From positions 1 to 43,462 of the IMG/VR virus record IMGVR_UViG_3300047560_001269: 43,462 nt of DNA; one strand, given 5' to 3'. The number at the start of each line of letters is the position of its first letter. The stretch's first letter is position 1. Shown here one piece after another: positions 212-43,364 of this stretch. A program made the translations under genes and the position numbers. The notes under the pieces are model-generated. The model had not been told where the DNA came from. It saw only the letters and a program-made list of their open reading frames with translations, and made no database searches. Source of the DNA: a virus.

Positions 212-285
212 ATCTCGTTAGTGTAGCAGTAACACGCTAGTCTCCAAAACTAGAATCAGGGGCGCGAAACCTCTACGGGATGCCA
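212..285 (+). tRNA. tRNA-Trp (anticodon CCA)
   Basis: Cloverleaf drawn by hand: acceptor atctcgt/acgggat, anticodon stem ctagt/actag with loop ctccaaa (anticodon CCA at 244-246), T stem agggg/cctct, discriminator G and an encoded CCA end at 283-285. It starts right after the HNH stop codon, first of 13 tRNAs in the first 3.9 kb. The T loop is cgcgaaa rather than the usual ttcgaat type, which is slightly unusual. Confidence 0.9.
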
Positions 286-307
286 ATTTAAAAAAGGAAA
301 TAATATA

Positions 308-484
308 ATGAAAGTAACTGAATCAGAAGATTGTACCGATTGGCCAGAACGATTGGAAAAGATTGTTGAAGATTTAAATAATAAGAATCCAGACCTAAAC
401 CTTATCAGTATGCAACCTATGACTGCTCCAACTGGAAAGATTTTTAAGTTACGATTGAGAGAAGCTAAGAATAATGAAATATAA
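308..484 (+). CDS. hypothetical protein, 58 aa
   Basis: A small reading frame with a good AAGGAAA ribosome-binding site 8 bases before the ATG. The protein is charged, starts MKVTESEDC and has no membrane segment or motif that I recognise. Its 3' end overlaps the next gene by 11 bases in another frame, the style of translational coupling seen across this genome, which supports it being real. Function unknown. Confidence 0.6.
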   Translation: MKVTESEDCTDWPERLEKIVEDLNNKNPDLNLISMQPMTAPTGKIFKLRLREAKNNEI

Positions 485-650
485 AGCGATTGACATTGTG
501 AATTGGTCTTGTTCCAAACAATCTGATAACAGATGGATACCAGCAAGACCTTTGCCTTATTATGGTTGGTGGGGCGTAAAGACCAGAATTAAATGTGCGT
601 GGTTTGTTCTCATTGGAAAATATGACGCATTAGATTGGGAGGATCAATGA
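474..650 (+). CDS. hypothetical protein, 58 aa, Trp-rich
   Basis: Starts inside the end of the preceding small gene and ends in an ATGA overlap with the following one, so three tiny genes form a coupled run. The product carries six tryptophans, including a GWWG turn near residue 31, and looks like a small soluble basic protein. No family recognised. The overlaps on both sides are the main evidence that it is translated. Confidence 0.55.
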   Translation: MKYKAIDIVNWSCSKQSDNRWIPARPLPYYGWWGVKTRIKCAWFVLIGKYDALDWEDQ

Positions 651-778
651 ATAAATTAAGTTTTTCGGAATGGAAAGAGTTGACTGATTTCAGTAAGGAA
701 CCACCAATGCACGAAGAAGATATTCTATTAGAATATGAAGAATATCTGAATAACTTAGAAAAAGTTGAGGAAGAATAG
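647..778 (+). CDS. hypothetical protein, 43 aa, acidic
   Basis: Begins in an ATGA overlap with the stop of the upstream gene and has a GGGAGGA Shine-Dalgarno stretch just before its ATG. The very acidic 43-residue product (many Glu in the C-terminal half, ending VEEE) has no recognised domain. Tiny acidic proteins of this kind are common host-takeover candidates in T4-like phages, but no function can be assigned here. Confidence 0.5.
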   Translation: MNKLSFSEWKELTDFSKEPPMHEEDILLEYEEYLNNLEKVEEE

Positions 779-800
779 ATTTTACTAAAAAGGTGTTAAC

Positions 801-1274
801 ATGATATTGAGGGAAATAAACTTAGATGAAGTAAGAGAATTCATTAATGCACAAAGTCCAGAAACCTGTGTCTATCTTGGTTCAGACTCAGAAAGACATA
901 AGATTGATGGAAGATGGTATGCAGATTATACGACTTGTGTTATTGTGCATATTGATGGAGAACATGGTTGTAAAGTATTTGGTGAAGTTAAGAGAGAACT
1001 TGACTATGACCAGAAGAAGAACAAACCTTCCATGCGCCTAATGAATGAAGTCTATAATGTATCAGCGCTCTTCAGTGAACTAAAAGATGTTCTTGAAGAT
1101 AGATATGTTGAAGTTCATCTTGACCTTAATCCAGATGTTCGTTATGGTTCTTCTTGTGTTATTCAACAAGCAATAGGATACATAAGAGGAACTTGTAACC
1201 TAACACCAATGGTTAAACCAAACAGTTGGGCTGCATCTCATGCTGCTGACCGTTTGAAGGATTTGCTCCCATAG
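801..1274 (+). CDS. RNase H-like protein (DUF458/YkuK family)
   Basis: A 157-residue protein with the layout of the RNase H-fold DUF458/YkuK family. The acidic set expected for this fold is visible: D29 in YLGSDSE, E83 in the helix MNEVYN, D108 in HLDLNP and D150 in SHAADR. The stretch after D108 (PDVRYGSSCVIQQAIGYI) and the late VKPNSWAASHAAD block are characteristic of the family. Known members are poorly characterised and inferred to act on nucleic acid; a role in phage RNA or DNA processing is inference. It has an AAAAAGG ribosome-binding site, and its last 10 bases overlap the tRNA-Thr that follows. Confidence 0.75.
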   Translation: MILREINLDEVREFINAQSPETCVYLGSDSERHKIDGRWYADYTTCVIVHIDGEHGCKVFGEVKRELDYDQKKNKPSMRLMNEVYNVSALFSELKDVLEDRYVEVHLDLNPDVRYGSSCVIQQAIGYIRGTCNLTPMVKPNSWAASHAADRLKDLLP

Positions 1275-1339
1275 TTTGAACGGTAAAACGATTCCTTGGT
1301 AAGGAATAAACGATGGTTCGACTCCATCTAGGAGCTCCA
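1265..1339 (+). tRNA. tRNA-Thr (anticodon GGT)
   Basis: Anticodon stem attcc/ggaat with loop ttggtaa (GGT at 1298-1300), T stem gatgg/ccatc with loop ttcgact, acceptor gctccca/taggagc with one C-A mismatch, discriminator T and encoded CCA at 1337-1339. Its first 10 bases lie inside the coding end of the RNase H-like gene, so tRNA processing would cut that mRNA at its stop codon. Confidence 0.85.
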
Positions 1340-1345
1340 ATTAAT

Positions 1346-1423
1346 GCCTCCGTACACCAATCTGGTAGAGTGAGCGGTCTTAGAAGCCGTAAAGTGTCAG
1401 TTCGAATCTGACCGGGGGTACCA
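1346..1423 (+). tRNA. tRNA with Leu anticodon UAG but a short variable loop
   Basis: Acceptor gcctccg/cgggggt, anticodon stem gcggt/gccgt with loop cttagaa (TAG at 1381-1383), T stem gtcag/ctgac with loop ttcgaat, discriminator A and encoded CCA. The anticodon reads CUA/CUG leucine codons, but the variable region is only about five bases (aaagt), whereas bacterial tRNA-Leu normally has a long variable arm. The D stem has only three good pairs. It is clearly a tRNA; its charging specificity is uncertain. Confidence 0.8.
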
Positions 1424-1432
1424 AATTAATGG

Positions 1433-1461
1433 TTGACAAAGTGTGGAATGTTTGATATAAT
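1433..1461 (+). promoter_or_regulatory. sigma70-type promoter inside the tRNA cluster
   Basis: Perfect TTGACA (1433-1438), 17-base spacer and perfect TATAAT (1456-1461) preceded by TGA, an extended -10. It lies between two tRNA-Leu genes and should drive tRNA-Leu(UAA) and genes downstream. Confidence 0.85.
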
Positions 1462-1480
1462 GTTGCACACAATGAATGAA

Positions 1481-1564
1481 GCGGGTGTGGTGAAATGGTA
1501 GACGCAAGGGACTTAAAATCCCTCGGAGAAATCCGTGTCGGTTCGAGTCCGACCACCCGTACCA
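1481..1564 (+). tRNA. tRNA-Leu (anticodon TAA)
   Basis: A normal class II tRNA: acceptor gcgggtg/cacccgt, anticodon stem aggga/tccct with loop cttaaaa (TAA at 1514-1516), a variable arm hairpin cgga/tccg, T stem gtcgg/ccgac with loop ttcgagt, discriminator A and encoded CCA at 1562-1564. It contrasts with the short-armed Leu-anticodon tRNA just upstream. Confidence 0.93.
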
Positions 1565-1568
1565 AATC

Positions 1569-1644
1569 GGGCCTCTAGCATAACGGTTAATGCAGCAAAC
1601 TCATAATTTGTTGACTCTCGGTTCGAATCCGAGGGGGCCCACCA
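1569..1644 (+). tRNA. tRNA with anticodon CAT (elongator Met or Ile2)
   Basis: Acceptor gggcctc/ggggccc fully paired, D stem gcat/atgc with the normal C11-G24 pair, anticodon stem gcaaa/tttgt with loop ctcataa (CAT at 1602-1604), T stem ctcgg/ccgag, discriminator A and CCA. The paired first base pair and the A-T-rich anticodon stem argue against initiator function. A lysidine-modified Ile2 identity cannot be excluded from sequence. Confidence 0.9.
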
Positions 1645-1664
1645 ATTAAAAAAAAGGAGATAGT

Positions 1665-1844
1665 ATGAACTGTATTTTGAATTCTTTGATGATTATTATT
1701 GTTTTTGCTTTTTTTGCGGTGGCAGGAATTTTTGGATTAGAAATGTATGAACAACACAAAGCAGTAGAAGCTGGATTACAGCAATGTGTTGTTGCAATTA
1801 ATTCAAACACATACGAAGCAGTATGGCAGAAAGAATGTAAGTAA
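1665..1844 (+). CDS. small single-pass membrane protein, 59 aa
   Basis: Preceded by an AAAAAGGAGA Shine-Dalgarno site. The first 25 residues are a strong hydrophobic helix (LMIIIVFAFFAVAGIFGL), followed by a soluble tail of about 34 residues ending in WQKECK and holding two cysteines (C41 and C58). It resembles many tiny phage inner-membrane proteins that alter the host envelope, but no family was recognised. Location in the inner membrane is inferred from the hydrophobic segment. Confidence 0.65.
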   Translation: MNCILNSLMIIIVFAFFAVAGIFGLEMYEQHKAVEAGLQQCVVAINSNTYEAVWQKECK

Positions 1845-1854
1845 CAGTTTTTTT

Positions 1855-1957
1855 GGACGGTTGTGTCCTGCCACTACTCGCAGCGACATGATCGGTAGGA
1901 CTGCCATCCTGCGAAAAGTCAATCTGGCAGGATTGATGAATGTATCCAAATTTTTTT
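1855..1957 (+). other. structured intergenic RNA candidate ending in a T-run
   Basis: The gap between the small membrane protein and tRNA-Arg has nested complementary segments: tcctgcca (1866-1873) with tggcagga (1925-1932), and inside it cgcag (1879-1883) with ctgcg (1909-1913). It is followed by seven T residues at 1951-1957. This may be a structured transcript, a processing spacer or a decayed tRNA. No open reading frame with a ribosome-binding site was seen. Confidence 0.35.
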
Positions 1958-1960
1958 CAT

Positions 1961-2036
1961 GCCGCCATAGTCTAATGGAGAGGGCAACGCTCTTCTAAAG
2001 CGTAAGGTAGGGGTTCGAATCCTCTTGGCGGCGCCA
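1961..2036 (+). tRNA. tRNA-Arg (anticodon TCT)
   Basis: Acceptor gccgcca/tggcggc, anticodon stem acgct/agcgt with loop cttctaa (TCT at 1994-1996), T loop ttcgaat, discriminator G and encoded CCA at 2034-2036. It reads the AGA/AGG codons, AGA being heavily used in this AT-rich genome. Confidence 0.93.
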
Positions 2037-2045
2037 AATTAATGG

Positions 2046-2074
2046 TTGCCAAAATGGCATATATAAAGTATAAT
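2046..2074 (+). promoter_or_regulatory. sigma70-type promoter before tRNA-Gln
   Basis: TTGCCA (2046-2051), 17-base spacer and perfect TATAAT (2069-2074). The bases leading into it (aaattaatggttg) match those before the promoter at 1433, suggesting duplicated promoter units between tRNA genes. Confidence 0.8.
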
Positions 2075-2085
2075 GTATGAACAAT

Positions 2086-2159
2086 TTCGGGATCGTCTAA
2101 TGGTAGGACATGTGACTTTGACTCACAGAATCGAGGTTCGAGCCCTTGTCCCGAAACCA
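2086..2159 (+). tRNA. tRNA-Gln (anticodon TTG)
   Basis: Acceptor ttcggga/tcccgaa, anticodon stem tgtga/tcaca with loop ctttgac (TTG at 2118-2120), T stem cgagg/ccttg with loop ttcgagc, discriminator A and encoded CCA at 2157-2159. It starts 12 bases after the -10 box of the promoter at 2046. Confidence 0.92.
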
Positions 2160-2167
2160 GTTTAAAT

Positions 2168-2241
2168 GCGGGTATAGTTTAAAGGTAAAACAGAACCTTG
2201 CCAAGGTTCAGTTGATAGTTCAATTCTATCTACCCGCTCCA
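2168..2241 (+). tRNA. tRNA-Gly (anticodon GCC)
   Basis: Acceptor gcgggta/tacccgc, anticodon stem gaacc/ggttc with loop ttgccaa (GCC at 2200-2202), discriminator T and encoded CCA at 2239-2241. The T stem (gatag/ctatc) has loop ttcaatt. Separated by eight bases from tRNA-Gln and from the second Gly tRNA. Confidence 0.92.
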
Positions 2242-2249
2242 ATTTAAAT

Positions 2250-2325
2250 GCGGATATAACTCAATTGGTAGAGTGTCAGCCTTCCAAGCTGTACGTTGCA
2301 GGTTCGAGTCCTGTTATCCGCTCCA
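2250..2325 (+). tRNA. tRNA-Gly (anticodon TCC)
   Basis: Acceptor gcggata/tatccgc, anticodon stem tcagc/gctgt with loop cttccaa (TCC at 2283-2285), T stem gcagg/cctgt with loop ttcgagt, discriminator T and encoded CCA at 2323-2325. With the GCC isoacceptor it covers all glycine codons except possibly GGG wobble. Confidence 0.92.
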
Positions 2326-2346
2326 ATTTAAGGTAAGGAGTATATT

Positions 2347-2508
2347 ATGTCTGGTAGTGTAGTAAAGCGATGCGGTTGTAAAGGCACACCTTCACACAGT
2401 TCTGATTATCAGGACCAAAAGTATGGTGATGGTATGAGAGTGATGTGCATGGATCAGAAGAAGGTTGAAGCAGTTTGTACTATTTGTGGAAAAACTCATA
2501 AGGTGTAA
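2347..2508 (+). CDS. small zinc-ribbon-like protein, 53 aa
   Basis: Good AAGGAG ribosome-binding site before the ATG. The 53-residue product has cysteine pairs CGC (C9, C11) near the start and CTIC (C44, C47) near the end plus a single Cys at 34, an arrangement suggesting a small zinc-binding module. Such proteins in phages may bind nucleic acid or host polymerase, but nothing more specific can be said. It sits between a Gly tRNA and another small gene. Confidence 0.6.
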   Translation: MSGSVVKRCGCKGTPSHSSDYQDQKYGDGMRVMCMDQKKVEAVCTICGKTHKV

Positions 2509-2510
2509 TT

Positions 2511-2720
2511 ATGAAAGGTATCAAACATAAACATCCAATGCAAACTCGTCATGGTAGAACTCGTTATAAGGCATATTCACATATTGAATTGATGCTGATG
2601 TATAAGAAAGAGTCTACTCCCAAAAAGAAACATAAAATCATTGAAGAAATTAATAGAAAACTAAAGAATCTTGGTGTTGTGTTTCGAGTTAGTAAATCAA
2701 ATCCAGAATTAAATATATAA
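2511..2720 (+). CDS. hypothetical basic protein, 69 aa
   Basis: Starts two bases after the preceding stop codon with ATGAAAGG. The protein is strongly basic (many Lys, Arg, His in the first 50 residues), lacks membrane segments and cysteines, and could bind nucleic acid. A helical central part (KKHKIIEEINRKLKNLG) is predicted by eye. It ends 9 bases before tRNA-Thr. No family recognised. Confidence 0.55.
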   Translation: MKGIKHKHPMQTRHGRTRYKAYSHIELMLMYKKESTPKKKHKIIEEINRKLKNLGVVFRVSKSNPELNI

Positions 2721-2729
2721 AGATTAACT

Positions 2730-2804
2730 GCCCCTCAAGCATAAGTGGCGATGCACTTGACTTGTAATCATGAGAAATCGGTTCGATTCCGGTGAGGGGC
2801 TCCA
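2730..2804 (+). tRNA. tRNA-Thr (anticodon TGT)
   Basis: Acceptor gcccctc/gaggggc, anticodon loop cttgtaa (TGT at 2763-2765) on a stem with one T-T mismatch, T stem atcgg/ccggt with loop ttcgatt, discriminator T and encoded CCA at 2802-2804. Second Thr isoacceptor of the cluster. Confidence 0.9.
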
Positions 2805-2860
2805 AATGCAGACTGATAGGAAAGACTATCATCTTTTTGTTAACAATTAAAGGAGAAACT

Positions 2861-3217
2861 ATGACTTTTATTAAATCATTTATTGCGGCAATTGCTTTGT
2901 TCGGCACTTTCAGTGTGGCTAATGCTACTGTATCACCTGCCGGTGGTAACATCGTTACTGTTGGTTGTGCTGCTGATGCGCCTACCGGAGCAAATGTATA
3001 TTCTGTAAATGCTGCAATTCTTAACGGTAGTGTAACTGATTCTTTGACTCTACCAACTGGAGTAGCCGCAGGGAATGCATGTGGAGTCGCACTAAATGCT
3101 CTTAGTGCAGTAACTTGTGCAACCGGTAAGACTTGGGTTCTTGTGAATGAACCAACAAATATTACCATTGACAATACTGGTTACTCACTACAACAGTTTG
3201 TATTCCGTTGTCAGTAA
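2861..3217 (+). CDS. secreted protein with signal peptide, 118 aa
   Basis: The start at 2861 is chosen because AAAGGAG lies just upstream and the first 22 residues then form a textbook signal peptide: MTFIKS, a hydrophobic core AAIALFGTFSV and a signal peptidase I site after ANA. A longer frame exists upstream but would run through tRNA-Thr. The mature part is rich in Gly, Ala, Thr and Val, with four cysteines (including one three residues from the C-terminus) that could form disulfides in the periplasm. No family recognised. Exported small phage proteins often act in superinfection exclusion or envelope changes; that role is only a guess here. Confidence 0.7.
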   Translation: MTFIKSFIAAIALFGTFSVANATVSPAGGNIVTVGCAADAPTGANVYSVNAAILNGSVTDSLTLPTGVAAGNACGVALNALSAVTCATGKTWVLVNEPTNITIDNTGYSLQQFVFRCQ

Positions 3218-3369
3218 TATAAACTAAATGTGATATAAAATCCTCCTTGATATCGAGTATAATATATCACGAAACATCGAAAACCAGAAGTGATGTAAAA
3301 TAAAACACTGGCGTGAACTAGAGCGGTTATAACGATATGATAACGCTGGATTTCGTAACCAGTAACTTT

Positions 3370-3447
3370 CCGAGTGTAGTTCAGTTTGGTTAGAATACGT
3401 GCTTTGGGAGCATGGGGTCGGGGGTTCGAATCCCTCCACTCGGACCA
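3370..3447 (+). tRNA. tRNA-Pro (anticodon TGG)
   Basis: Acceptor ccgagtg/cactcgg, anticodon stem cgtgc/gcatg with loop tttggga (TGG at 3405-3407), T stem cgggg/ccctc with loop ttcgaat, discriminator A and encoded CCA at 3445-3447. The 150 bases upstream (3218-3369) contain no gene I can support, only short A-T-rich inverted repeats. Confidence 0.92.
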
Positions 3448-3453
3448 ATTTCT

Positions 3454-3529
3454 TGGTAGGTGCGTGATAGGTAATACGGGTTGACTGTTAATCAATTTCA
3501 TGTGGGTTCGAATCCCACCCTACCAGCCA
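3454..3529 (+). tRNA. tRNA-Asn (anticodon GTT)
   Basis: Acceptor tggtagg/cctacca, anticodon stem gttga/tcaat with loop ctgttaa (GTT at 3487-3489), T stem gtggg/cccac with loop ttcgaat, discriminator G and encoded CCA at 3527-3529. Follows tRNA-Pro by six bases. Confidence 0.92.
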
Positions 3530-3546
3530 ATTTAAGTGAGATATAT

Positions 3547-3795
3547 ATGAGTTATAGACCAACAGGTAAAAATGTACTGATTGAGAGAATTGCTGCTTCT
3601 AAGCAAACTGAATCAGGAATCATTCTAAAATCATCAGAAGAACCTGATCGTGCAAAAGTTATTGCAATTGGTCCAGAAGTTGATGAAGTTAGTATTGATG
3701 AGATTGCTGTAGTTAATTGGAATACTGCAACAAAGATTGAAGATGAATTATATATTATAAATATTGATAACGTTGTTTTGGTTATCGAAGACTAG
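3547..3795 (+). CDS. GroES-like co-chaperonin (Cpn10)
   Basis: The 82-residue protein matches the GroES fold: an N-terminal RPTGKNVLIERI strand, a mobile-loop-like ASKQTESGIIL segment (about residues 18-28) that in GroES contacts GroEL, then RAKVIAIGPEV, an AVVNW strand and the C-terminal DNVVLVIED strand. Phage co-chaperonins such as T4 gp31 replace GroES to let GroEL fold the major capsid protein; the same job is likely here. It is shorter than E. coli GroES (97) and T4 gp31 (111), and its roof region is short. The start at 3547 follows GTGAG; the frame extends upstream only through tRNA-Asn. Confidence 0.85.
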   Translation: MSYRPTGKNVLIERIAASKQTESGIILKSSEEPDRAKVIAIGPEVDEVSIDEIAVVNWNTATKIEDELYIINIDNVVLVIED

Positions 3796-3800
3796 TTAAT

Positions 3801-3876
3801 TGCGGGTTAGATTTCTGGTGAAATCACCGGTCTCATAAGCCGGTCCAGAGTAGTTCGATTCTGCTACCCGCTACCA
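3801..3876 (+). tRNA. initiator-like tRNA-Met (anticodon CAT)
   Basis: Anticodon stem ccggt/gccgg with loop ctcataa (CAT at 3834-3836), T stem agtag/ctgct with loop ttcgatt, discriminator A and encoded CCA at 3874-3876. Two bacterial initiator hallmarks are present: the first acceptor pair is mismatched (T1-T72) while 2-7 pair perfectly, and the D stem gatt/aatc has A11-T24. The third hallmark, three G-C pairs next to the anticodon loop, is only partly met (G-C, G-C, T-G). Confidence 0.85.
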
Positions 3877-12641: not shown

Positions 12642-13355
12642 ATGACGGCAACGGTGATTATTCCCACAACGGGAGCATATGATGTTAAACAAGCAATAGA
12701 AAGTGTTTTAGAACAGACATACGAAACTCAAATTTATGTTGTAATCGATGGACTTAGATTTGAGGATAAAGTTGATGATATTTTAAATAAAGTTCGAGGA
12801 GACTTTACAAACGTACATTTCTGTACTCTTCCAATCAATGTGGGTGCCAATGGATTCTATGGTCATAGAGTCTATGCGGCATTCACTCATCTAATCAACA
12901 CTGATTATGTGTTATATCTTGATCAGGATTGCTGGATGAGGCCGAATCATGTTGAATCTTTAATCGATACTATTGAATCCAATAATCTGGATTGGGCATA
13001 TTCTCTTAGAAGTATCTGGTCTCAAGATGGTGCATTTATTTGTCTTGATAATTGTGAATCTCTTGGCCCAGAATGGCCAATCATGGGTTATCCCCATGTA
13101 GATACAAACTGTTATTGTATCAAAACTTCCGTTGCAACTAAGGTTGCGTCAGCATGGCATGGTGGTTGGGGACAGGATAGAGTTTTCTTAAACGTCCTCT
13201 CCACACACTTTAAATCGTATAAATGTTCCAGTCTATATACTTTAAACTACAGAATGGGTGGTGACACTAATGCAGTGAACGCCAACTTCTTTGTTGAAAA
13301 TAATATGAAGGTTGAAAAACATTATAATGGAGAACTACCGTGGCGAAAAACTTAA
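12642..13355 (+). CDS. family 2-like glycosyltransferase (GT-A fold)
   Basis: A 237-residue GT2-type enzyme: the N-terminal TATVIIPTTGAYDVKQAIESV is the nucleotide-sugar-binding start of the fold, and VLYLDQDCW supplies the DxD metal motif (D94, D96). A GAN/HRVYAAF helix lies between them. It would transfer a sugar from a nucleotide donor to an unknown acceptor. First gene of a seven-gene block whose members overlap by 4-16 bases or abut; it has a TTGGAGTT ribosome-binding site and overlaps the next gene by 16 bases. Confidence 0.88.
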   Translation: MTATVIIPTTGAYDVKQAIESVLEQTYETQIYVVIDGLRFEDKVDDILNKVRGDFTNVHFCTLPINVGANGFYGHRVYAAFTHLINTDYVLYLDQDCWMRPNHVESLIDTIESNNLDWAYSLRSIWSQDGAFICLDNCESLGPEWPIMGYPHVDTNCYCIKTSVATKVASAWHGGWGQDRVFLNVLSTHFKSYKCSSLYTLNYRMGGDTNAVNANFFVENNMKVEKHYNGELPWRKT

Positions 13356-14194
13356 TTATTGGTGGATTTACTAATTACAATTACAATCAATTAAAACCTT
13401 GGGTTGAATCTATTGACGAATCTGGATTCCAAGGAGACAAAGTTCTTGTTTTTGGTAATGCATCTGAAGAAACACTAAAACAACTGAGTGATAGGAATTT
13501 CAAATTAATTCCTATGCAAAATTCAAATATGCCAATTCATGTGGCAAGATTCTTATACATCTATGAATACTTGAGAGAACATTGGAAAGAATATAATCAT
13601 GTAATCACAACCGATGTAAAAGATGTTTACTTTCAAACAAATCCAACTGAATGGTTGGAGGGCAGGTTGGATGGATTTAAAATCATATGCGGTTCAGAAG
13701 GCATAAGATATAAAGATGAATCTTGGGGTGATGAGAATCTGAAACAGTGTTATGGCGAATATATCTATAACCTCTTCAAAGACAATGAAATATACAATGT
13801 TGGTGTATTGGCTGGAAAGTCAGAATATATCAAAGACCTTGTTTTCAATATCTTTACAAATGCAGTAAATAGACCCATTCCAATTGTAGATCAAGCAGTA
13901 TTCAACGTACTTATCAATACACAACCATATAAAGATTGTACGTATTTTGCAAAGCAATATTATGGTTGGGCATGTCATGCTGGAACAACTGTCGATCCAA
14001 GTAAAATCGAAAGGTTTAGGCCAAACCTAACTGAACCAGAACCACACTTTAAAGATGGTATTGTGTACTCATCAAATGGTGAACCTTTCTGTATTGTTCA
14101 TCAGTATGATAGAGTTCCAGAATGGAAAGAATTTGTCATGAATAAGTATAATCAAGAAGACGAATCAAACTACTTTAGGTATAAAACAGCATGA
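13340..14194 (+). CDS. glycosyltransferase-like protein
   Basis: The GTG start is chosen because GGAGAAC lies just upstream inside the previous gene. The 284-residue protein begins with LIIGGFTNYNYNQLKPWVES, typical of enzymes acting on sugar chains, and has ITTDVKDVYFQTNP (D92, D95), a DxD-like metal site followed by a hydrophobic strand. Later blocks IYNVGVLAGK and VDQAVFNVLI resemble the acceptor side of GT-A enzymes. It overlaps the next gene by four bases (ATGA). Donor and acceptor unknown. Confidence 0.72.
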   Translation: MAKNLIIGGFTNYNYNQLKPWVESIDESGFQGDKVLVFGNASEETLKQLSDRNFKLIPMQNSNMPIHVARFLYIYEYLREHWKEYNHVITTDVKDVYFQTNPTEWLEGRLDGFKIICGSEGIRYKDESWGDENLKQCYGEYIYNLFKDNEIYNVGVLAGKSEYIKDLVFNIFTNAVNRPIPIVDQAVFNVLINTQPYKDCTYFAKQYYGWACHAGTTVDPSKIERFRPNLTEPEPHFKDGIVYSSNGEPFCIVHQYDRVPEWKEFVMNKYNQEDESNYFRYKTA

Positions 14195-14985
14195 GTGAAA
14201 TTTCAATTGTAACAGCATTTTATGATATTGGTCGTTCGGGTTGGACTACAGACATAGGATTGCCTCATTATTTACACAGAACTACAGACACATATTTTGA
14301 AAGATTCTCATATCTGGCTTCGTTGGATAATGAGATGGTTGTTTTTACATCTGAAGACTTGGTCGACCGTGTAAAGAAAATTCGCGGAGATAAACCAACT
14401 CAAGTTATTGCTGTAGACTTTAAAGATCAGTTTTTAGACCTGAAAAGGCAGGTAACTCAAATTCAAATTAGTGATAAGTTTATTAACATGATCAATCCAT
14501 ACCAGATCAAGAATCCTGAATATTGGAGTTGTGATTATGTTGTAGTTAATATGTTAAAGTCTGTGTTTGTCAATTTAGCAATAAAGATGAATCTAATCAA
14601 TAATGATTTAGTTGCATGGATGGACTTTGGTTACTGTAGAGATGAAAGTATACTTAATGGTGTAAAAACCTGGAAATATAATTTTAATAAAGATAAAATA
14701 CATTTCTTTAACATCAAAGATTATAAAGAAGGCACCTATATCTCAGAAATTATTGCAAATAATGATGTACATATTACTGGACCATGTATTGTTGCTTCTA
14801 AAGAACTCTGGCCAAAATTAGAAAAACTGGTAGATCATTCACTAAAAGAGTTGTTGAATAATGAATTAATTGATGATGATCAAACTGTTCTGTTAATGTC
14901 ATATCTACTCCAACCAGAGTTATTTGAGTTACACAAAGTTTCAGACACAGATTGGTTTGTTGCTTTTAAGGAATATAGTGAATGA
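14191..14985 (+). CDS. HtrL/YibB-like protein
   Basis: A 264-residue protein with the HtrL_YibB family start ISIVTAFYDIGRSGW, then a YFERFSYLASLDNEMVVFT block and a central AWMDFGYCR strand, all hallmarks of this family. YibB/HtrL lies in the lipopolysaccharide core locus of enterobacteria and is thought to act in envelope glycan synthesis, though its reaction is unproven; the fold resembles glycosyltransferases. Its place amid glycosyltransferases supports a glycan role. ATGA overlaps on both sides. Confidence 0.75.
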   Translation: MSEISIVTAFYDIGRSGWTTDIGLPHYLHRTTDTYFERFSYLASLDNEMVVFTSEDLVDRVKKIRGDKPTQVIAVDFKDQFLDLKRQVTQIQISDKFINMINPYQIKNPEYWSCDYVVVNMLKSVFVNLAIKMNLINNDLVAWMDFGYCRDESILNGVKTWKYNFNKDKIHFFNIKDYKEGTYISEIIANNDVHITGPCIVASKELWPKLEKLVDHSLKELLNNELIDDDQTVLLMSYLLQPELFELHKVSDTDWFVAFKEYSE

Positions 14986-15728
14986 AAATCTACTTAAGTT
15001 GTACTGCAAATCTTGGAGACTTTCTTAATGCAATGCCCGTTTTATCGGGCATTCACAACTCTTATGGTAAATTTGAATTCATCATAAGAAATGAAATGAA
15101 GAAGTTTAATGGTATTAAACATTTCTTATCACATCAACAATTATTCACTGATGTTTTTTATGATGATGAAGTCATTCTGTATGGAGAACAACCATTATAC
15201 TTATCATCATGGACAAGAGAGGATAGAAATTCAGATATTAGACCTGTAGAAACTTGTCGATATGAAAATTGGATAAGAGACAACTACAATTTAAACTTCG
15301 AAGTTGATGATAACTTCACTCTGAAATTACCAGAGGTTGAAATTGAATTTAATAATGATCGATATATCTTGGGTGACAGGTGGGATGAGACATTAGATCC
15401 AAGTGTCGATTCAAGACGAAAGACCAGAGTTCTTGAGGACAGTGGTAAATTCGATAATAATGAAGTTCATTATCTTGACTACAACCAAGATTTGTGTTAT
15501 AATGTTAATATCATAAAATTCAGTGAAAAACCATTCATAACTACATTTACTGGCATCGGTATTTTGTCCGATCTTCTAGGAAAAGAAACTTATGTCTTGT
15601 GGGATGATGACATGGAGTTCTGGGATGGAAGACCAGTTCAATATGACTTTGAACGACACTATTATGCCGACAGGAAAAGTAAGTTGAGATATATAAAAGA
15701 TTTTAATTTGGGAGAACTAAATGATTGA
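14982..15728 (+). CDS. GT9/heptosyltransferase-like protein (tentative)
   Basis: A 248-residue protein starting MKIYLSCTANLGDFLNAMPVL, reminiscent of the N-terminus of GT-B heptosyltransferases (a glycine-Asp turn followed by a helix leading to a receptor-like surface), but the usual C-terminal donor motif is not clear. Many acidic and aromatic residues follow. An 8-bp GC hairpin (15032-15053) lies about 50 bases inside the gene. It overlaps both neighbours by four to eight bases. Function in the glycan block is inferred from context. Confidence 0.5.
   Translation: MKIYLSCTANLGDFLNAMPVLSGIHNSYGKFEFIIRNEMKKFNGIKHFLSHQQLFTDVFYDDEVILYGEQPLYLSSWTREDRNSDIRPVETCRYENWIRDNYNLNFEVDDNFTLKLPEVEIEFNNDRYILGDRWDETLDPSVDSRRKTRVLEDSGKFDNNEVHYLDYNQDLCYNVNIIKFSEKPFITTFTGIGILSDLLGKETYVLWDDDMEFWDGRPVQYDFERHYYADRKSKLRYIKDFNLGELND
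15032..15053 (+). repeat. intragenic 8-bp GC-rich hairpin
   Basis: aatgcccg (15032-15039) pairs perfectly with cgggcatt (15046-15053) around ttttat, 50 bases inside a coding sequence of an otherwise AT-rich region. No T-run follows directly. Confidence 0.6.
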
Positions 15729-16251
15729 CTTTGAAAAAGACTATCAGACAGCATTAAGAACAACTACTGATATTAATGAACATTTACCAGTTTTATCTGA
15801 TCTTGCATCAAAATGCAGTCATGTGACCGAACTTGGTGTTGGTTGGGCTCAAAGTACCAGAGCATTTCTGAGAAACGATGTTGTGTTACACAGTTATGAA
15901 TATATGCCACAACCTGGTATCGAACAATATTTCGAAGAATGCAAAAAGTCGGGCCGTAATGTAACTCTTCATGTTGCAGATACTCGTCTTGTTGAAATTG
16001 AACCAACCGATATGATGTTGGTTGATAGTCTTCATGTTTACGAACAGGTTAAAGAAGAATTGCGTTTACACGCGGATAAAGTGAAGAAGTTTATTGTCTT
16101 TCACGATACTACAACTTTTGAATCTGTTGGTGAATTTGGTGGTAAAGGCATTTGGCCAGCAGTTCAAGAATTTCTTGAAGATCATCCAGAGTGGCAGATT
16201 AAAGAACGTAGAACTAATAACAATGGTTTGACGGTTTTACATCGTGTCTAA
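15721..16251 (+). CDS. class I SAM-dependent methyltransferase-like protein
   Basis: A 176-residue Rossmann protein. VTELGVGWAQSTRAFL holds the SAM-binding loop (E37-G41), LHSYEYMP is the second strand and MMLVDSLHVYEQVKEEL plus FIVFHDTTTF are the blocks seen in the Methyltransf_24/cephalosporin-hydroxylase-like families, which often methylate sugars. WPAVQEFLEDHPEW near the end also fits. It probably modifies a sugar made or transferred by the neighbouring enzymes. Overlaps both neighbours by eight bases. Confidence 0.75.
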   Translation: MIDFEKDYQTALRTTTDINEHLPVLSDLASKCSHVTELGVGWAQSTRAFLRNDVVLHSYEYMPQPGIEQYFEECKKSGRNVTLHVADTRLVEIEPTDMMLVDSLHVYEQVKEELRLHADKVKKFIVFHDTTTFESVGEFGGKGIWPAVQEFLEDHPEWQIKERRTNNNGLTVLHRV

Positions 16252-16978
16252 AATTTCATTTTGGCATTGTGCATCTATTCGTAAAAATGCCACTGAACAA
16301 GTAATCTCAAATATAAGACAGTACCATCCAGACAGTTATTACTTTTTGTGTGTTGATGCAACAGAAAGTTATGAAAAGATGGCTGACAAGTATCAATGTG
16401 ATTACTTGTATTGCAATGAAAAATTAGGTTATCCTGATGCATCATATGGTTATGATTTGAATAGGGTTTTGGAATTCTTGCGAAGATTCCATATAGCATG
16501 CATTCGTTGTAAAACTGATCATATAATGATGGTAGAAGATGATGTTTGGCTGTTAAATCCAGTAACAATTAATACTGATTGGGAAATGGCATGTCATCAT
16601 ATCACACATGGTAATGTAATACCTGATAGTGTTATAGGTATGATACAACAATATTCGGGTAAAATGCCTTTGACAAAACATTATTGTGGTGCTGGTGGAT
16701 CAATCTTCAATGTCAAAACGTTTGTAGACAACTATGACAACATAATCAAGTTCTTTAAAGACAATTTTGATCATATACAAAAAGAATTATATCCAACTAT
16801 AGGCTGGATTGATTGTTTTATGGTTGTTTATTTTTATCTTTGTGGTAAGGACTTGTCAGTTAATAATAATCTGGTTGATACACACAACCATGCACCAGGT
16901 TTTGATTATGAATCTTTTGTAACTGGTTTGCCTTCTAATATTGAAATCGTTAATAATTATAAGAAGTTTTATTGGTGA
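16244..16978 (+). CDS. GT-A-type glycosyltransferase-like protein
   Basis: A 244-residue protein, GTG start overlapping the methyltransferase gene by eight bases. It begins SKISFWHCASIRKNATEQVI, followed by a YYFLCVDAT strand, and has MMVEDDVWL (E98-D100) as a DxD-like metal site, then HYCGAGGSIFN, an acceptor-loop-like block. These fit a GT-A glycosyltransferase of unknown donor. The ribosome-binding site is weak, suggesting reinitiation from the upstream gene. Confidence 0.65.
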   Translation: MSKISFWHCASIRKNATEQVISNIRQYHPDSYYFLCVDATESYEKMADKYQCDYLYCNEKLGYPDASYGYDLNRVLEFLRRFHIACIRCKTDHIMMVEDDVWLLNPVTINTDWEMACHHITHGNVIPDSVIGMIQQYSGKMPLTKHYCGAGGSIFNVKTFVDNYDNIIKFFKDNFDHIQKELYPTIGWIDCFMVVYFYLCGKDLSVNNNLVDTHNHAPGFDYESFVTGLPSNIEIVNNYKKFYW

Positions 16979-16981
16979 TAT

Positions 16982-17683
16982 ATGTCTGATGTGATTAATA
17001 TTCCGTTTGGTACTTTTGGCCAAACTATTAGAAATGGTGATATGATAGGTATTGCAAATGTAGTTCAATATCTAAGAAAAGACAATAAACAACTAAAGTT
17101 TTATATTCAGAGAAACAATATACAACAAACTGATTACTGTTTAAAGTTCTATGACTTTTTGTGTGAAAACACAAGTTACTTCTCTACAGTTCCTGGAGAT
17201 AAAGACTTATCTTGGAAGAATGTCAATGTTTGGGATTTTAGAGACATATCCGGTGATCAGGTTTCCATACGAAACAAAAAAGAAATAGAAAACAAAATTG
17301 TTGTTTTTCCTGTTCTTGACGCACCATATAATACATATAGAAATTGGCCTAAAGACTTGTTGCAAAGCATCTTAAAAGAAAGTTCAACTTTCTATGAAAA
17401 AAAGATACTGTGTGTCAAAGAACAAATTGATAATTTGGATCTGCATGGATTTGAAATCAGTACAGACTTTATGACTAACATAGAACACATAATGACTTGT
17501 CATACGTTTGTTGGAGGTGATACTGGCACATCACATTTCGCATCTGCATTGAATAGAGGCCCAATAGATCTGGTATATTACTACTCAAGTCGAGGATTGA
17601 TACACACTATGCCATTTTACTTATTGGATGGTAAAGGAACAATAAAAACATATTGGGGAAATTTTGAAGGCACGACTTGGTAA
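16982..17683 (+). CDS. GT9-like glycosyltransferase (C-terminal heptosyltransferase motif)
   Basis: A 233-residue protein ending the glycan block. The clearest signal is FVGGDTGTSHFASAL near residue 172, which corresponds to the GxDSGxxHLA donor site of ADP-heptose:LPS heptosyltransferases and related GT9 enzymes. The N-terminal IPFGTFGQTIRNGDMIGIANVVQYL could be the receptor domain. Shorter than typical GT9 proteins (about 320-350), so the N-terminal domain is trimmed. Starts three bases after the previous stop codon and is followed by a late promoter box. Confidence 0.65.
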   Translation: MSDVINIPFGTFGQTIRNGDMIGIANVVQYLRKDNKQLKFYIQRNNIQQTDYCLKFYDFLCENTSYFSTVPGDKDLSWKNVNVWDFRDISGDQVSIRNKKEIENKIVVFPVLDAPYNTYRNWPKDLLQSILKESSTFYEKKILCVKEQIDNLDLHGFEISTDFMTNIEHIMTCHTFVGGDTGTSHFASALNRGPIDLVYYYSSRGLIHTMPFYLLDGKGTIKTYWGNFEGTTW

Positions 17684-17686
17684 TAT

Positions 17687-17694
17687 TATAAATA
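17687..17694 (+). promoter_or_regulatory. T4-like late promoter box TATAAATA
   Basis: An exact TATAAATA, the T4 late consensus, in the 49-base gap before the capsid-targeted fusion gene at 17733. The gap has no -35-like element, as expected for late promoters read by gp55 with clamp activation. Confidence 0.65.
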
Positions 17695-17732: not shown

Positions 17733-19547
17733 ATGAAATCATTTTCTTATTATTTGCAAGAGTCTGTTTATGATAATCTTGGAGGTTCAAGAGGTCATTA
17801 CAGACATCCAGAAGAACTCTTTTTAGATCATGGCAAAGAGGGTGCAGTAGCTGCACACAAATTGTTACATGATACCGCACACAATAGACATCCTCTACAA
17901 AAGAAGGGTGACGGTTCTCTTGCTTTCCATATATTGACAAACGTTCAAGGAAAGAAAGGCGTAGCAACCAAATCTATTGATAATAAAGAACCAAAGATTA
18001 ATTATACACATGACGATATTGAAAGAAATCACGGCCATGCTCCAGGATTAGCACAGAAATTACACGCATTGCTTGATAATGCGGATAAAATCTCTGGAAG
18101 CAATAGACACATATCAGGTGAATTTTTATTTACTCCAGATGAAGTAGAACATAAAGATGGGCAAGCATCATTTAAACCAAACACAATCAAAAATATGGTT
18201 GGTGATGACGCTGAGGCACAAAGAATCAAAAATGCCAAGGTCGGAGTGGCAATGCACTCAGCATTCGACAATAAAGGATCAAGAAAACCGCTTGAACCGG
18301 GGGATGTTCGCGAGCATCCAGACGTTTATAACATGGATCTTTCGGCGCCAAAAATAAACAAGACGCCTGAAACTTCTAAACATCTGAAGAACCTTTCTGA
18401 CACCATCAGAAGAACTCCATCTCAGGCTTTTGATTATGTTAGTCAGCCACATATAAGAGATCACTTTAAAACCTATATCAATAAGACCGTGCGTGATGGA
18501 TCATCACCAAATACTGATGACTTCATAAAACACATCTCAGACACTCATCAAAAACTTATTGATAAGGTAAAAACTGATAAGGCAAAAGAACAGAAGATGG
18601 CGGCAAGAAATTCCGAACTTGCTGACGTAACTCAAAATAAGAAACATCTCGATCATGCCTTTAAAGTGCATCATGCAACTGTTGCTGCTAAAGATCATCT
18701 TGTTGATTTAATTAATAAACATGATTCTACCAGTAAAGTTACGCACCACCTAGAAAATGGAGACGGAACATATCGCCAAACAGGTGCTGAGGGTTGGACA
18801 TTCGATTCACCACAACACTCGACTATCAATACGTTGAAACTTGTTAATCGTGGTGATTTTAGTAGAAACAATTTCAACCTAAATTCTCGTTTTAGAAAGC
18901 CTGTTAATGAATCTCTTTGGGTACATACACTTAATGAATCATTAACCAATTATAACCCTCAAAGCAACCATGCTGTCTTGACTTTCGGTCGATTCTCACC
19001 TCCACACAAAGAACATAGTCACTTAGTTGATGCTGTGGTTGATCACGCAAATGAAATTGGCGGAGACCCTCATGTTTTTGTTAGTCACTCACACGATAAA
19101 GATAAAAATCCATTAACTGGAAACGAAAAAGTTGCAATTTTAAGAACATCTCATCCAGAATATAGACACATTTTTCATACATCTTCAAAACAGTCACCCA
19201 GTATATTCCACGCTCTTGCCAACCTACATGCAAAGGGATACAAACATGCAACAGTTGTGTTGGGTGATGACCGTGTTGAGGAAATGAGAAACAGTCTGCA
19301 CTCTTACAATGGTCAGTTTGATAAACACGGTAGAGGTTATAAATTTGACTCTATCAACGTTATGACTAGACATGATCAAAATAATATGAGAGACGCATCT
19401 GGACGTGACGGTGTTCATGCCTCAGACGTTAGAAAAGCAGCCAGAGAAGGCGACATTGAACTGGTTAAATCACAATTACATCCCAATTTAAGTATGGGTA
19501 TGGTCAGATCAATCGTAAATAGAATTCAACAGAGGACAAAAAAGTAA
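17733..19547 (+). CDS. capsid-targeted ligase-like / NMNAT-like fusion protein
   Basis: A 604-residue protein. Residues 1-10 (MKSFSYYLQE) match the T4 capsid-targeting sequence MKTYQEFIAE, with Glu at the cleaved position. The N-terminal domain has motifs of covalent nucleotidyltransferases/RNA ligases: KGDG (58-61) as motif I, VATKS, ISGEFLF (E130) as motif III, PNTI and VGVAMHS. The C-terminal domain (from about 412) is an NMNAT/NadR-like cytidylyltransferase: FGRFSPPHKEH (H425, H428; Glu replaces the usual Gly), VVLGDDR and HASDVRKAA in place of ISxTxVR. A second protease-like site LNE (400-402) separates the domains. It lies behind a late promoter, so it is probably packaged in the head. 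Confidence 0.75.
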   Translation: MKSFSYYLQESVYDNLGGSRGHYRHPEELFLDHGKEGAVAAHKLLHDTAHNRHPLQKKGDGSLAFHILTNVQGKKGVATKSIDNKEPKINYTHDDIERNHGHAPGLAQKLHALLDNADKISGSNRHISGEFLFTPDEVEHKDGQASFKPNTIKNMVGDDAEAQRIKNAKVGVAMHSAFDNKGSRKPLEPGDVREHPDVYNMDLSAPKINKTPETSKHLKNLSDTIRRTPSQAFDYVSQPHIRDHFKTYINKTVRDGSSPNTDDFIKHISDTHQKLIDKVKTDKAKEQKMAARNSELADVTQNKKHLDHAFKVHHATVAAKDHLVDLINKHDSTSKVTHHLENGDGTYRQTGAEGWTFDSPQHSTINTLKLVNRGDFSRNNFNLNSRFRKPVNESLWVHTLNESLTNYNPQSNHAVLTFGRFSPPHKEHSHLVDAVVDHANEIGGDPHVFVSHSHDKDKNPLTGNEKVAILRTSHPEYRHIFHTSSKQSPSIFHALANLHAKGYKHATVVLGDDRVEEMRNSLHSYNGQFDKHGRGYKFDSINVMTRHDQNNMRDASGRDGVHASDVRKAAREGDIELVKSQLHPNLSMGMVRSIVNRIQQRTKK

Positions 19548-19551
19548 TAAA

Positions 19552-20673
19552 ATGAAAGACTTAAAGAATTTTCTTGGTCAAATTTCACGATACAAAAAGA
19601 AGAGTGAAATATTTGGTGAAAACAAGGCTATTTTTGTGACTGGTGTGCCTGGTTCTGGAAAAGATGTGATTATTAGAGAGATACTCTCGCATGTTGATAT
19701 AACAGAAATAAACCATCTACAGGCCTACAACTATCTTCAGGATAAGAAAAGACTGAATGAGAAAAGCAACGACTATCGTAGAGAATCATTCAGAAATCAC
19801 TTTCCAATAATCATTAATGCTCCAGCTGACGATTTTGATAAAATTAATTATATCAAAGAAGAACTGGAGAAATTGGGATATTCATCCTTAATGGTTTTTG
19901 TTAATACCACCAATTCGGTCAGTAAAGAACGAAATGAAAACTTATCTAGGATGATGATAGAAGCTGTCAGACATAATAGATGGTCTTTATCGCAAAATAA
20001 TAAATCAGTCTATAAGGACATATTTGAAAATTTCATACAAATTGATAACAATGACACTCTAGAAGAGATACAAGAAGAAATTCAATTTGTATACAAGAAA
20101 ATTAATAAATATCTTGTTTCCGAGTCAAAACCGTCCATTATTAAACTTAATCCGGAATTAACGGCTGACGGTCCTGCTGATGTAACACCAGATAATCGTC
20201 CTGGTGAATCCAAACACGGTGATGATATTAAAGGTGATACACCGGCGAGAAAGAATCCGAATAAGTCATATATCTTCAAAACATATAGTGAAGATGCAAA
20301 ATTGGTTGTGTTCCCAGAACCTAAAAAGAGCAATTTCTCGAAAGACAAAGAATCTAAAAAGAAAGATACCACATCTCCAAACGTAAATCAAAGATTGAGA
20401 AACACAAGTGGTATAAGCCCAGAATTTGATACACGACAGCAGGGTACTGTATATCCCATGTCCGGTCTTGGTGATGTTACTTATAGAGAAAGCAGAGACT
20501 TCAAAGGCTTTAGAAATAAATTAAAAGAAGCAATTGATGATCCTGGTGCAGTAGATATGGGAGTTGGTGGAACACTAAATGGTGCCACTAATAAAGAACC
20601 TATGCAGTCTTATAAAGATCAAGAAAGAAACATTGGTATTAAAATAAAGAAAAAAGGAAACAAAAATGTTTAA
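19552..20673 (+). CDS. P-loop kinase-like head-associated protein
   Basis: A 373-residue protein. The first residues (MKDLKNFLGQ) resemble the capsid-targeting sequences nearby but have Gln instead of Glu at position 10. IFVTGVPGSGKDVIIREIL (from residue 27) is a clear Walker A (GVPGSGKD) of nucleotide or polynucleotide kinase type, followed by a LMVFVNTTN strand and a RMMIEAVRHNRW lid-like helix. From about 205 on it is Lys/Asp/Pro-rich and disordered-looking, ending in basic residues; FRNKLKEAIDDPG holds a possible prohead protease site (LKE). The kinase substrate is unknown. It overlaps the next gene by eight bases. Confidence 0.65.
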   Translation: MKDLKNFLGQISRYKKKSEIFGENKAIFVTGVPGSGKDVIIREILSHVDITEINHLQAYNYLQDKKRLNEKSNDYRRESFRNHFPIIINAPADDFDKINYIKEELEKLGYSSLMVFVNTTNSVSKERNENLSRMMIEAVRHNRWSLSQNNKSVYKDIFENFIQIDNNDTLEEIQEEIQFVYKKINKYLVSESKPSIIKLNPELTADGPADVTPDNRPGESKHGDDIKGDTPARKNPNKSYIFKTYSEDAKLVVFPEPKKSNFSKDKESKKKDTTSPNVNQRLRNTSGISPEFDTRQQGTVYPMSGLGDVTYRESRDFKGFRNKLKEAIDDPGAVDMGVGGTLNGATNKEPMQSYKDQERNIGIKIKKKGNKNV

Positions 20674-23882: not shown

Positions 23883-24266
23883 ATGCAAAATCTAACTGAA
23901 GACAACTTTCTGATATATGCAATGAAGTGCTATAATGCGCCTCATTGCATTATGTCGGAGTTTGAAAGTGACATCAAGAGAACTAAATATCTAAAGAGAT
24001 TGTTTCGTAGATATAAAGTAACAAAAATATTAAAAGAAAGACTAATACTCAATCATATAATTCTATTAAATAATGTTTTTGGTCCTGTACCAACATCAAG
24101 AATATTATTTTATAAAATTGATGAACGCGACTATGATATTCTAAAAACGTTCTTAGAATATCTGGATATAATGCCAGAAGAGGTCAGAGGCATTAGAGGT
24201 AAGATCATACACACTTCTGATATTCCCTTAGATAATAACATCGCAGAGATACTGTTAAAGATATGA
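23883..24266 (+). CDS. conserved phage hypothetical protein, 127 aa
   Basis: A 127-residue helical protein with no cysteine motif. LTEDNFLIYAMKCYNAPHC at the start, LKRLFRRY in the middle and LILNHIILLNNVFG followed by RILFYKI are features of a conserved small-protein family of T4-like marine phages found near head genes. Function is unknown; the basic middle helix may contact nucleic acid or a partner protein. It follows the stem-loop after the structural gene and overlaps the next gene by four bases. Confidence 0.6.
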   Translation: MQNLTEDNFLIYAMKCYNAPHCIMSEFESDIKRTKYLKRLFRRYKVTKILKERLILNHIILLNNVFGPVPTSRILFYKIDERDYDILKTFLEYLDIMPEEVRGIRGKIIHTSDIPLDNNIAEILLKI

Positions 24267-24661
24267 AAACATTCAAACAATTCCTAGAAGAAATGAAAAA
24301 CCCTTGCTGGAAGGGTTATAAAGCATACGGAATGAAAAAGAAGGGTGGAAAAACCGTTCCTAATTGTGTCAAAGAAGAAACTCAATTAGATGAAAAGTCT
24401 GCTGCATGGCAACGTAAAGAGGGAAAGAACCCAGAAGGCGGTCTCAACAGAAAGGGTATTGCATCCTATCGTAGAGAGAATCCAGGTTCTAAGTTAAGTA
24501 TGGCAGTAACTACTCCACCATCTAAACTAAAGAAGGACAGTAAAGCCGCAAAACGCAGAAAGTCATTTTGTGCAAGAATGGGTGGTATGCCTGGTCCAAT
24601 GAAGGATGAAAAGGGTAGACCAACCAGAAAGGCATTATCACTAAGAAAGTGGAATTGCTAA
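24263..24661 (+). CDS. basic internal head protein with capsid-targeting sequence
   Basis: A 132-residue, strongly basic protein beginning MKTFKQFLEE, nearly the same as the T4 internal-protein leader MKTYQEFIAE with Glu at position 10. Then come a CWKGYKAYGMKKKGG segment and, at the C-terminus, a conserved SFCARMGGMPGP block ending ALSLRKWNC. It may be packaged with DNA in the capsid after leader removal by the prohead protease; a second LDE site lies near residue 44. ATGA-type overlap with the preceding gene and TAATG overlap with the next. Confidence 0.65.
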   Translation: MKTFKQFLEEMKNPCWKGYKAYGMKKKGGKTVPNCVKEETQLDEKSAAWQRKEGKNPEGGLNRKGIASYRRENPGSKLSMAVTTPPSKLKKDSKAAKRRKSFCARMGGMPGPMKDEKGRPTRKALSLRKWNC

Positions 24662-42707: not shown

Positions 42708-43364
42708 TTATTCTAATATACTACATATAGTGTCCACGGATATATACTGTTTACACTTATTACCATGGTATCTGGTATATTGTGGTTTTGGTATAACCTT
42801 ATTACAATATGGACATTCTATTCTTGGTTGATTCTTAGCCTTCTGACTAATCTTCTCTCTGGCTATATCATCATGGGTTTTACCATACATTGCATTATTA
42901 ATACCCTTAGACTTCACGGATAATTTGTTTCTGGATTCTTCTGTCCATATTCTATTCTTATTTGATTGTATAATGGCATTTATAGACTTTTGGTTATTAG
43001 TCTTACCATATCTTGGACTATTCTCACCTGATAGCATTATACTATATTGTTTTTTTCTTTCTTCGGTGAATACATAACCTGACGCACCTTCGGCACCATC
43101 GGTTCTATTTCTTAATATACCCGTATTATTGTCTTTTCTGCCGAACCAACGGATATAATATCTCTCAAGGATAAATGACTGTAATTCGGTTAGATTATCT
43201 TGTATGATTATTATACGGGATTTATCTTTGGGTGGTAGTATTTCACCTTTCTTATATTTGTTATAGGCTCTATCGTCTTTGCCTTTACCAATATAATATG
43301 GTGTATAATCCTCTCTCAAATAGGCATAAACATAGAATGGTGTTGATTGAGCATATATACTCAT
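42708..43364 (-). CDS. GIY-YIG homing endonuclease with NUMOD3 repeats
   Basis: 218 residues on the minus strand, start at 43364 with AGAGGAG upstream. The N-terminal GIY-YIG nuclease has YVYAYL (11-16) and YYIGKG (23-28), then a helix and the metal Glu ([10 protein letters not shown]). Two NUMOD3-type DNA-binding repeats follow ([11 protein letters not shown] and [11 protein letters not shown]), with helical links, and a C-terminal zinc motif CPYC with H and C (YHGNKC). It cuts DNA at a recognition site to spread itself. It is the only minus-strand gene, consistent with a recent mobile insertion in an intergenic site. Confidence 0.93.

Follow-up and report, generated by a model that had tools for sequence, protein, structure and literature searches.

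A putative capsid-packaged fusion of a ligase-like DUF6267 domain and an NMNAT-like domain in a T4-like phage

A two-domain gene behind a T4-type leader

What might a phage gain from a protein that joins two predicted nucleotidyltransferases behind a capsid-targeting leader, and does such a protein travel in the virion? We addressed this question for a gene in a viral sequence of 43,462 nt (IMG/VR record IMGVR_UViG_3300047560_001269; the whole stretch is referred to here as the window). The window, a 43-kb piece of a T4-like phage genome, contains gp43-, UvsX-, gp41-, and gp61-like genes as well as an array of tRNA genes; apart from the primase, these gene names rest on sequence inspection and synteny. 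Positions 17733–19547 of the plus strand form a single uninterrupted reading frame of 604 amino acids (aa), in which Pfam and PHROGs matches delineate a DUF6267 nucleotidyltransferase-like domain and an NMNAT-like domain following the leader. The reading frame and the motifs of the original prediction were all where it had placed them: MKSFSYYLQE/S (slashes mark predicted cuts), K58GDG61, G129EFLF, H425KEH428, and L400NE402/S. Judged from the likeness of the leader to those of T4, identity of the K, D, and G of KGDG in 87 out of 87 aligned homologs, and the Pfam and PHROGs matches, these motifs are beyond chance, the internal LNE site being the weak point. Against the nearest relatives, pS was ∼0.7–0.85 (near saturation) and pN was 0.04–0.16 in both domains.

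A P-loop kinase-like protein (19552–20673, plus strand; phrog_12810, E 4e-15; phrog_2071 ATPase, E 9e-7) begins 4 nt 3′ of the gene and belongs to the same family as the kinases adjoining DUF6267 in other loci. Directly upstream of the gene, up to its late promoter, are glycosyltransferase-like and other sugar- or methyl-transfer-like genes (12642–17683). Elsewhere in the window we noted 13 tRNA genes within <4 kb (212–3876) and a GIY-YIG-like ORF on the opposite strand (42708–43364, minus strand), a possible homing endonuclease.

DUF6267 as a predicted ligase-like nucleotidyltransferase

The first domain (residues 20–385; 17790–18887, plus strand) is a predicted ligase-like covalent nucleotidyltransferase. 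Its residues 22–384 are a clear member of Pfam DUF6267 (PF19782; E 8.7e-51), the T4-GC_71 of cyanophages, and also match phrog_455. The family previously had no function assigned to it, and no mention of it was found in the literature searched; the ligase-like role is proposed here. The original prediction had called a ligase-type domain without recognizing it as DUF6267, a very common family whose genomes are mostly devoid of conventional ligases. Cas9_REC and ATG16 were discarded as domain identities, since the weak Pfam matches of the 604-aa protein to both were under the cut-off.

We aligned 87 sequences, with identities to the window protein reaching down to ∼22%. Eleven residues were invariant (K58, D60, G61, K80, K88, G171, H175, N250, E353, G354, and K369), position 130 was always acidic (D in 84, E in three), and R373 was kept in 86 out of 87. 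Taken in order, the conserved columns correspond to ligase-type motifs I (KxDG), Ia, III, IV (EG), and V (K). Motif I is K58-G-D-G61 (17904–17915), with K58 as the predicted adenylylated lysine; there follow, all on the plus strand, a motif Ia-like T79-K80-S81 (17967–17975), a motif III-like G129-E130 (18117–18122), motif IV at E353-G354 (18789–18794), and motif V at K369-L-V-N-R373 (18837–18851), which reads K-x-V and not K-x-K. In the model, helices are inserted between motifs IIIa and IV (approximately residues 205–335; 18345–18737, plus strand); this insertion is smaller in S-SM1 and Syn9.

The AlphaFold2 model of the domain (pLDDT 93.4, pTM 0.90) had mostly polynucleotide ligases as its PDB matches in Foldseek, including archaeal RNA ligase, LIG1, LIG4, Trl1, LigA, and Rnl2, with a best E-value of 0.13 and none reaching 0.001. 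In the Foldseek viral library, the first annotated match after the family itself was a phage RNA ligase (E 1.9e-3, probability 0.96). PDB sequence searches with the 604-aa protein and the family profile as queries returned nothing significant, hhalign comparisons of DUF6267 with T4 Rnl2, gp30, and Rnl1 were not significant (E 0.09–0.54, probability <1%), and a Pfam scan of the window protein gave no match to the Rnl1, Rnl2, or T4 DNA ligase families. Owing to the weak structural E-values and the failed comparison with the T4 ligase profiles, we place DUF6267, as far as motifs and model indicate, close to the ligase superfamily and outside every named ligase family. It shares with T4 RNA ligases 1 and 2, gp30, and LIG1 the order of KxDG, motif III acid, EG, and motif V lysine, but differs from them in having no significant sequence or profile similarity (the structural matches being weak), a large IIIa–IV helical insertion, and no recognized OB-fold; no motif VI was recognized in the domain either. 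The invariant motif set and the ligases among the model's best matches nonetheless support the ligase-type nucleotidyltransferase first called from the sequence, and DUF6267 very probably represents a new family within the covalent nucleotidyltransferase superfamily. We put nucleic-acid ligase activity at about even odds.

Capping or protein nucleotidylation could rely on these same motifs, and T4 Alt is a precedent of a packaged modifying enzyme. DUF6267 could accordingly be a delivered, host-modifying effector of the kind put forward in the original prediction, capping-like or attaching AMP or NAD to proteins or small molecules, but this is improbable given that the structural matches are ligases, not capping enzymes, and that the neighboring genes are of nucleic-acid end-processing types. 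Alt itself is an ADP-ribosyltransferase, whereas the 604-aa protein had no match to such a domain in Pfam, PHROGs, or fold searches.

The NMNAT-like domain and its association with DUF6267

The second domain (residues 413–604; 18969–19544, plus strand) is an NMNAT-like nucleotidyltransferase of the HxGH type. Residues 393–596 match phrog_3041 cytidyltransferase (E 2.3e-40), with a further match to phrog_395; a Pfam CTP_transf_like match was under its cut-off, and NCBIfam matches were far below theirs. The full-length model (pLDDT 87.8) matched nicotinate/nicotinamide mononucleotide adenylyltransferases in Foldseek (E 3e-4 to 1e-3, probability 1.0), and for the NMNAT-like domain the matches included NadD (E 3e-4) and archaeal NMNAT (E 4e-4). 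The model and sequence point to an NMNAT fold, with NMN as the putative substrate, in agreement with the domain call of the original prediction. In the structural comparison with RNA ligases and NMNATs that it suggested, the NMNAT fold was recovered at E 3e-4, and the PDB matches of the ligase part were weak (best E 0.13).

The HxGH-type motif in the window is H425KEH428 (19005–19016, plus strand), a variant shared by six of 102 relatives whose motif could be located; elsewhere the site is mostly TxGH. HxGH- and SxxxR-type motifs are common to relatives, the window having HKEH and ASDVR in these positions. Among other NMNATs in our collection, the one at L031:2517–4988 and similar ones (L044, L058, L172) have an N-terminal part weakly resembling Pol-beta nucleotidyltransferases (E 0.004, L031), and others are fused to P-loop kinases (L065, L101).

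DUF6267 occurred throughout aquatic T4-like phages, and each of two profile scans over viral contigs gave at least 600 matches. We limited the analysis of gene neighborhoods to the 69 distinct loci whose flanks extended 2.5 kb or more on each side of DUF6267; an NMNAT-like gene was fused to DUF6267 or near it in 60 of these, among the matches listed, and fusions were found in several lineages. The family lies in the replication region, in the order gp43-uvsX-gp41-...-DUF6267-NMNAT-...-gp61-nrdA. Cyanophages have T4-GC_71 (DUF6267) and then T4-GC_190 (cytidylyltransferase) between gp41 and gp61, and the NMNAT part of the window protein has the same domain and gene order as T4-GC_190. The two-domain architecture itself is present in S-PM2 (LN828717, S-PM2d138; 591 aa), whose fusion has no leader and is ∼29% identical to the window protein over the whole length. 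Since S-PM2 and others also carry the fusion, the novelty originally claimed for the enzyme pair was overstated.

P-loop kinases and HAD proteins are found among the leader-bearing neighbors of DUF6267, and all 10 HAD neighbors tested match a phage "polynucleotide kinase" family. In jumbo phages, polynucleotide-kinase/HAD-type enzymes accompany RNA ligases (PMC7824862). Kinase and HAD were both present in only two of the 69 loci, among the matches listed; on account of this rarity, a kinase, HAD, and ligase set was rejected as the usual single-locus kit, and a complete end-healing kit in one phage is conjectural.

A candidate for the missing ligase of T4-like phages

Cyanomyoviruses were noted in a 2010 review to have a T4 replisome and either no g30 DNA ligase or only unrecognized distant homologs (PMC2984593). 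We therefore looked at ligase content alongside DUF6267. PF01068, PF09414, and PF01653 had no match in 13 out of 15 DUF6267-bearing phage genomes or long contigs searched, and PF09511, looked for in 11 of the 15, had no match in any of them. On the other hand, all five DUF6267-free phages (T4, KVP40, Aeh1, phiM12, and Cr30) had both PF01068 and PF09414. Strict mutual exclusion was rejected, as Pseudoalteromonas XG4 and Vibrio 2.275.O carry DUF6267 plus both of these families. The distribution, which follows phylogeny and is not strict, suggests that DUF6267 replaced conventional ligases, and the family may be the "missing ligase" of T4-like phages.

These observations, together with the position of DUF6267 in the replication region and the reported lack of g30 in cyanomyoviruses (PMC2984593), would also be expected of a cytoplasmic replication ligase of marine T4-like phages to which a leader was merely added in the lineage of the window. 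We find this account doubtful: Leader-bearing members stand behind late promoters, which is odd for a replication enzyme; a host ligase can substitute for the phage ligase in cyanomyoviruses (PMC2984593); and two genomes carry DUF6267 and conventional ligases together. A wider proposal is made tentatively, at somewhat less than even odds: DUF6267 would be a new ligase family and the unrecognized polynucleotide ligase of T4-like phages from marine and fresh waters, and many lineages, that of the window included, would package it with an NAD-making enzyme and with a kinase and HAD phosphatase for end healing, thereby delivering a nucleic-acid repair kit.

Predicted leader, late promoter, and protease sites

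The predicted capsid-targeting leader MKSFSYYLQE (residues 1–10; 17733–17762, plus strand), with its predicted cut after Glu10, resembles the leaders of T4 IPII and IPIII, which read MKTYQEFIAE/A in the T4 record. It ends in the (L/I)xE typical of T4-type packaged internal proteins, is disordered in the model, and is kept in relatives (pN 0.02 and pS 0.85 against the related locus L002). T4 Alt had been offered as the packaging parallel; because the Alt leader differs, IPII and IPIII are the closest parallel. The T4 cargo consists of small internal proteins (IPI is an anti-restriction inhibitor), whereas the cargo of the window would be a two-enzyme fusion. Among the matches listed, 76 out of 146 distinct DUF6267 proteins had a leader start, compared with 72 out of 1180 other ORFs in the same loci, many of which are likely cargo themselves.

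A T4-type late promoter element, TATAAATA (17687–17694, plus strand), recognized by sequence, lies 38 nt before the ATG and is one of only two exact matches in the window. Among the matches listed, the element was found ≤120 nt upstream in 46 of 119 distinct loci, over a background of 1.3%. All of these had a leader or an FKG-type start (46/88, compared with 0/31 for leaderless proteins; Fisher p 1e-8), where the FKG class was defined after the first promoter count had been seen; for the leader alone the comparison was 33/75 with 0/31 (p 1e-6). These p values overstate certainty because the sequences are related and nonindependent. The promoter box predicts late expression of the 604-aa gene.

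The second protease-like site of the original prediction, L400-N-E402/S (18930–18938, plus strand), is present in the disordered linker (pLDDT <50) and could be a further prohead-protease site. It is not conserved: L002 and L003 (87%–89% identical) have it, and in L004–L006 (78%–79% identical) it is deleted, so a conserved, general polyprotein cut was rejected. All five related records longer than 110 kb have a gp21-type protease, as does one 65-kb record.

Packaging in relatives

Virion proteomes of relatives informed us about the fate of leader-bearing proteins. The T4-GC190 member (NMNAT cluster) of S-SM1, a virion protein (PMC3037559), begins MKKFSAFLNE/A. The S-CREM2 virion contains the NMNAT of that phage, and four of its five leader ORFs, the NMNAT among them, are proteins detected by mass spectrometry (MS) in the published virion proteome (PMC10665884). 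When the leader pattern was relaxed to any M...[LI]xE, it did not set the S-CREM2 virion proteins apart (Fisher p 0.11). NMNAT-like proteins recur across cyanophage virion proteomes (PMC9602691). Unlike T4-GC_190, which is leader-bearing and in virions in S-SM1 and S-CREM2, the NMNAT of the window is fused behind DUF6267 with its own leader gone, and LNE/S alone remains at the junction.

DUF6267 itself presents a different picture. The cyanophage members examined have no leader, in contrast to the window member; the leaderless DUF6267 of S-CREM2 (ORF87) is absent from the MS virion list; and the proteomics literature consulted names no DUF6267 protein among virion components. Packaging of the whole family was rejected on the strength of the leaderless cyanophage members and the S-CREM2 list, and since leaderless orthologs exist, packaging is not essential for DUF6267 function. 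For the window protein, sequence and analogy nevertheless make packaging in the capsid likely. This part of the original prediction is supported by the leader, the late promoter, and the MS detection, in other phages' virions, of leader-bearing proteins homologous to the second domain; an NMNAT in the virion is in itself not new, having been published for cyanophages (PMC3037559, PMC9602691, PMC10665884).

The leader motif is short, and ∼6% of other ORFs in the loci match its pattern, as would be expected if the leader-like N terminus and LNE had arisen by chance and the protein stayed in the cell. We consider this very unlikely in view of the conservation of the leader against L002, the late promoter, the family-wide association, and the MS data on leader-bearing relatives.

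A proposed delivered protein for end-sealing and NAD+ supply

The best overall explanation, to which we assign a probability of roughly 0.55, is a packaged and delivered DUF6267–NMNAT virion protein that couples end-sealing with NAD+ supply. The gene's own late promoter would drive late synthesis, the leader would draw the protein into the prohead core, and a gp21-type protease would cut after Glu10; the mature protein would then be enclosed in the capsid along with the DNA and reach the cell upon infection. AMP taken up by K58 would be handed to a nucleic-acid 5′ end, and sealing would therefore be the likely job of DUF6267, acting at nicks or broken ends in the newly delivered genome or in RNA. 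From ATP, the NMNAT domain would produce NAD+ or a similar dinucleotide, to serve as the cofactor of the sealing domain or to restore host NAD+. NAD-dependent ligases release NMN, and NMNAT converts NMN back to NAD+; if DUF6267 were to use NAD, the fused NMNAT could recycle the product. The "injected effector" of the original prediction is one reading among several, and the genome context agrees at least equally well with a ligase that seals ends or acts in replication.

Alternatively, the NMNAT domain could do the work with DUF6267 in support, rebuilding NAD+ at entry against NAD-depleting immunity or boosting metabolism. NMNATs are the partner found in cyanophage virions, an NMNAT-like gene accompanies DUF6267 in the 60 of 69 loci noted above (among the matches listed), and phage NAD+ reconstitution pathways are established, according to one report (PMC12774641). 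NAD+ counter-defence is rather unlikely here, however, as it leaves the invariant ligase motifs of DUF6267 and the polynucleotide-kinase-type neighbors unexplained, and an unsystematic look beside the gene revealed no NAMPT- or Adps-like partner.

T4 provides the precedent for leader-driven packaging, and NMNATs have already been published as virion proteins. New, to judge from the literature searched, are the proposed nucleotidyltransferase assignment of DUF6267, its rule combining leader and late promoter, and its missing-ligase candidacy. DUF6267 is among the commonest unexplained genes of aquatic T4-like phages; a catalytic assignment that names one lysine makes it directly testable and bears on the cyanomyoviruses' T4 replisome without a recognizable DNA ligase (PMC2984593). 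If our reading is true, many phages use the capsid-targeting route of T4 for real enzymes (NMNAT, SAM hydrolase, kinase), and leader plus late promoter provides a sequence rule for predicting proteins injected by phages.

Other leader-bearing proteins

Another protein of interest in the window belongs to DUF6321 (24263–24661, plus strand) and has its own leader, MKTFKQFLEE/M, making it a possible co-packaged protein; this unexplained family accounts for eight of 71 leader-bearing neighbor proteins. We also noted a short conserved module, approximately xxLGLxxxGxGxWYDxxGxLVAKT, that follows the leader in packaged NMNATs, an APH-like kinase, and a Cas9-like virion protein (L012:38257–39420; L174 and L175, S-CREM2 gp12 and gp14; L023, L062, L069, and L095), and that may be a second packaging or DNA-binding element. 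The Cas9-like S-CREM2 gp12 (L175:7704–10313), reported in the virion, has a leader-like LRFASFMAE/A at approximately residues 17–26, which suggests either a start annotated too far upstream or a functional internal leader.
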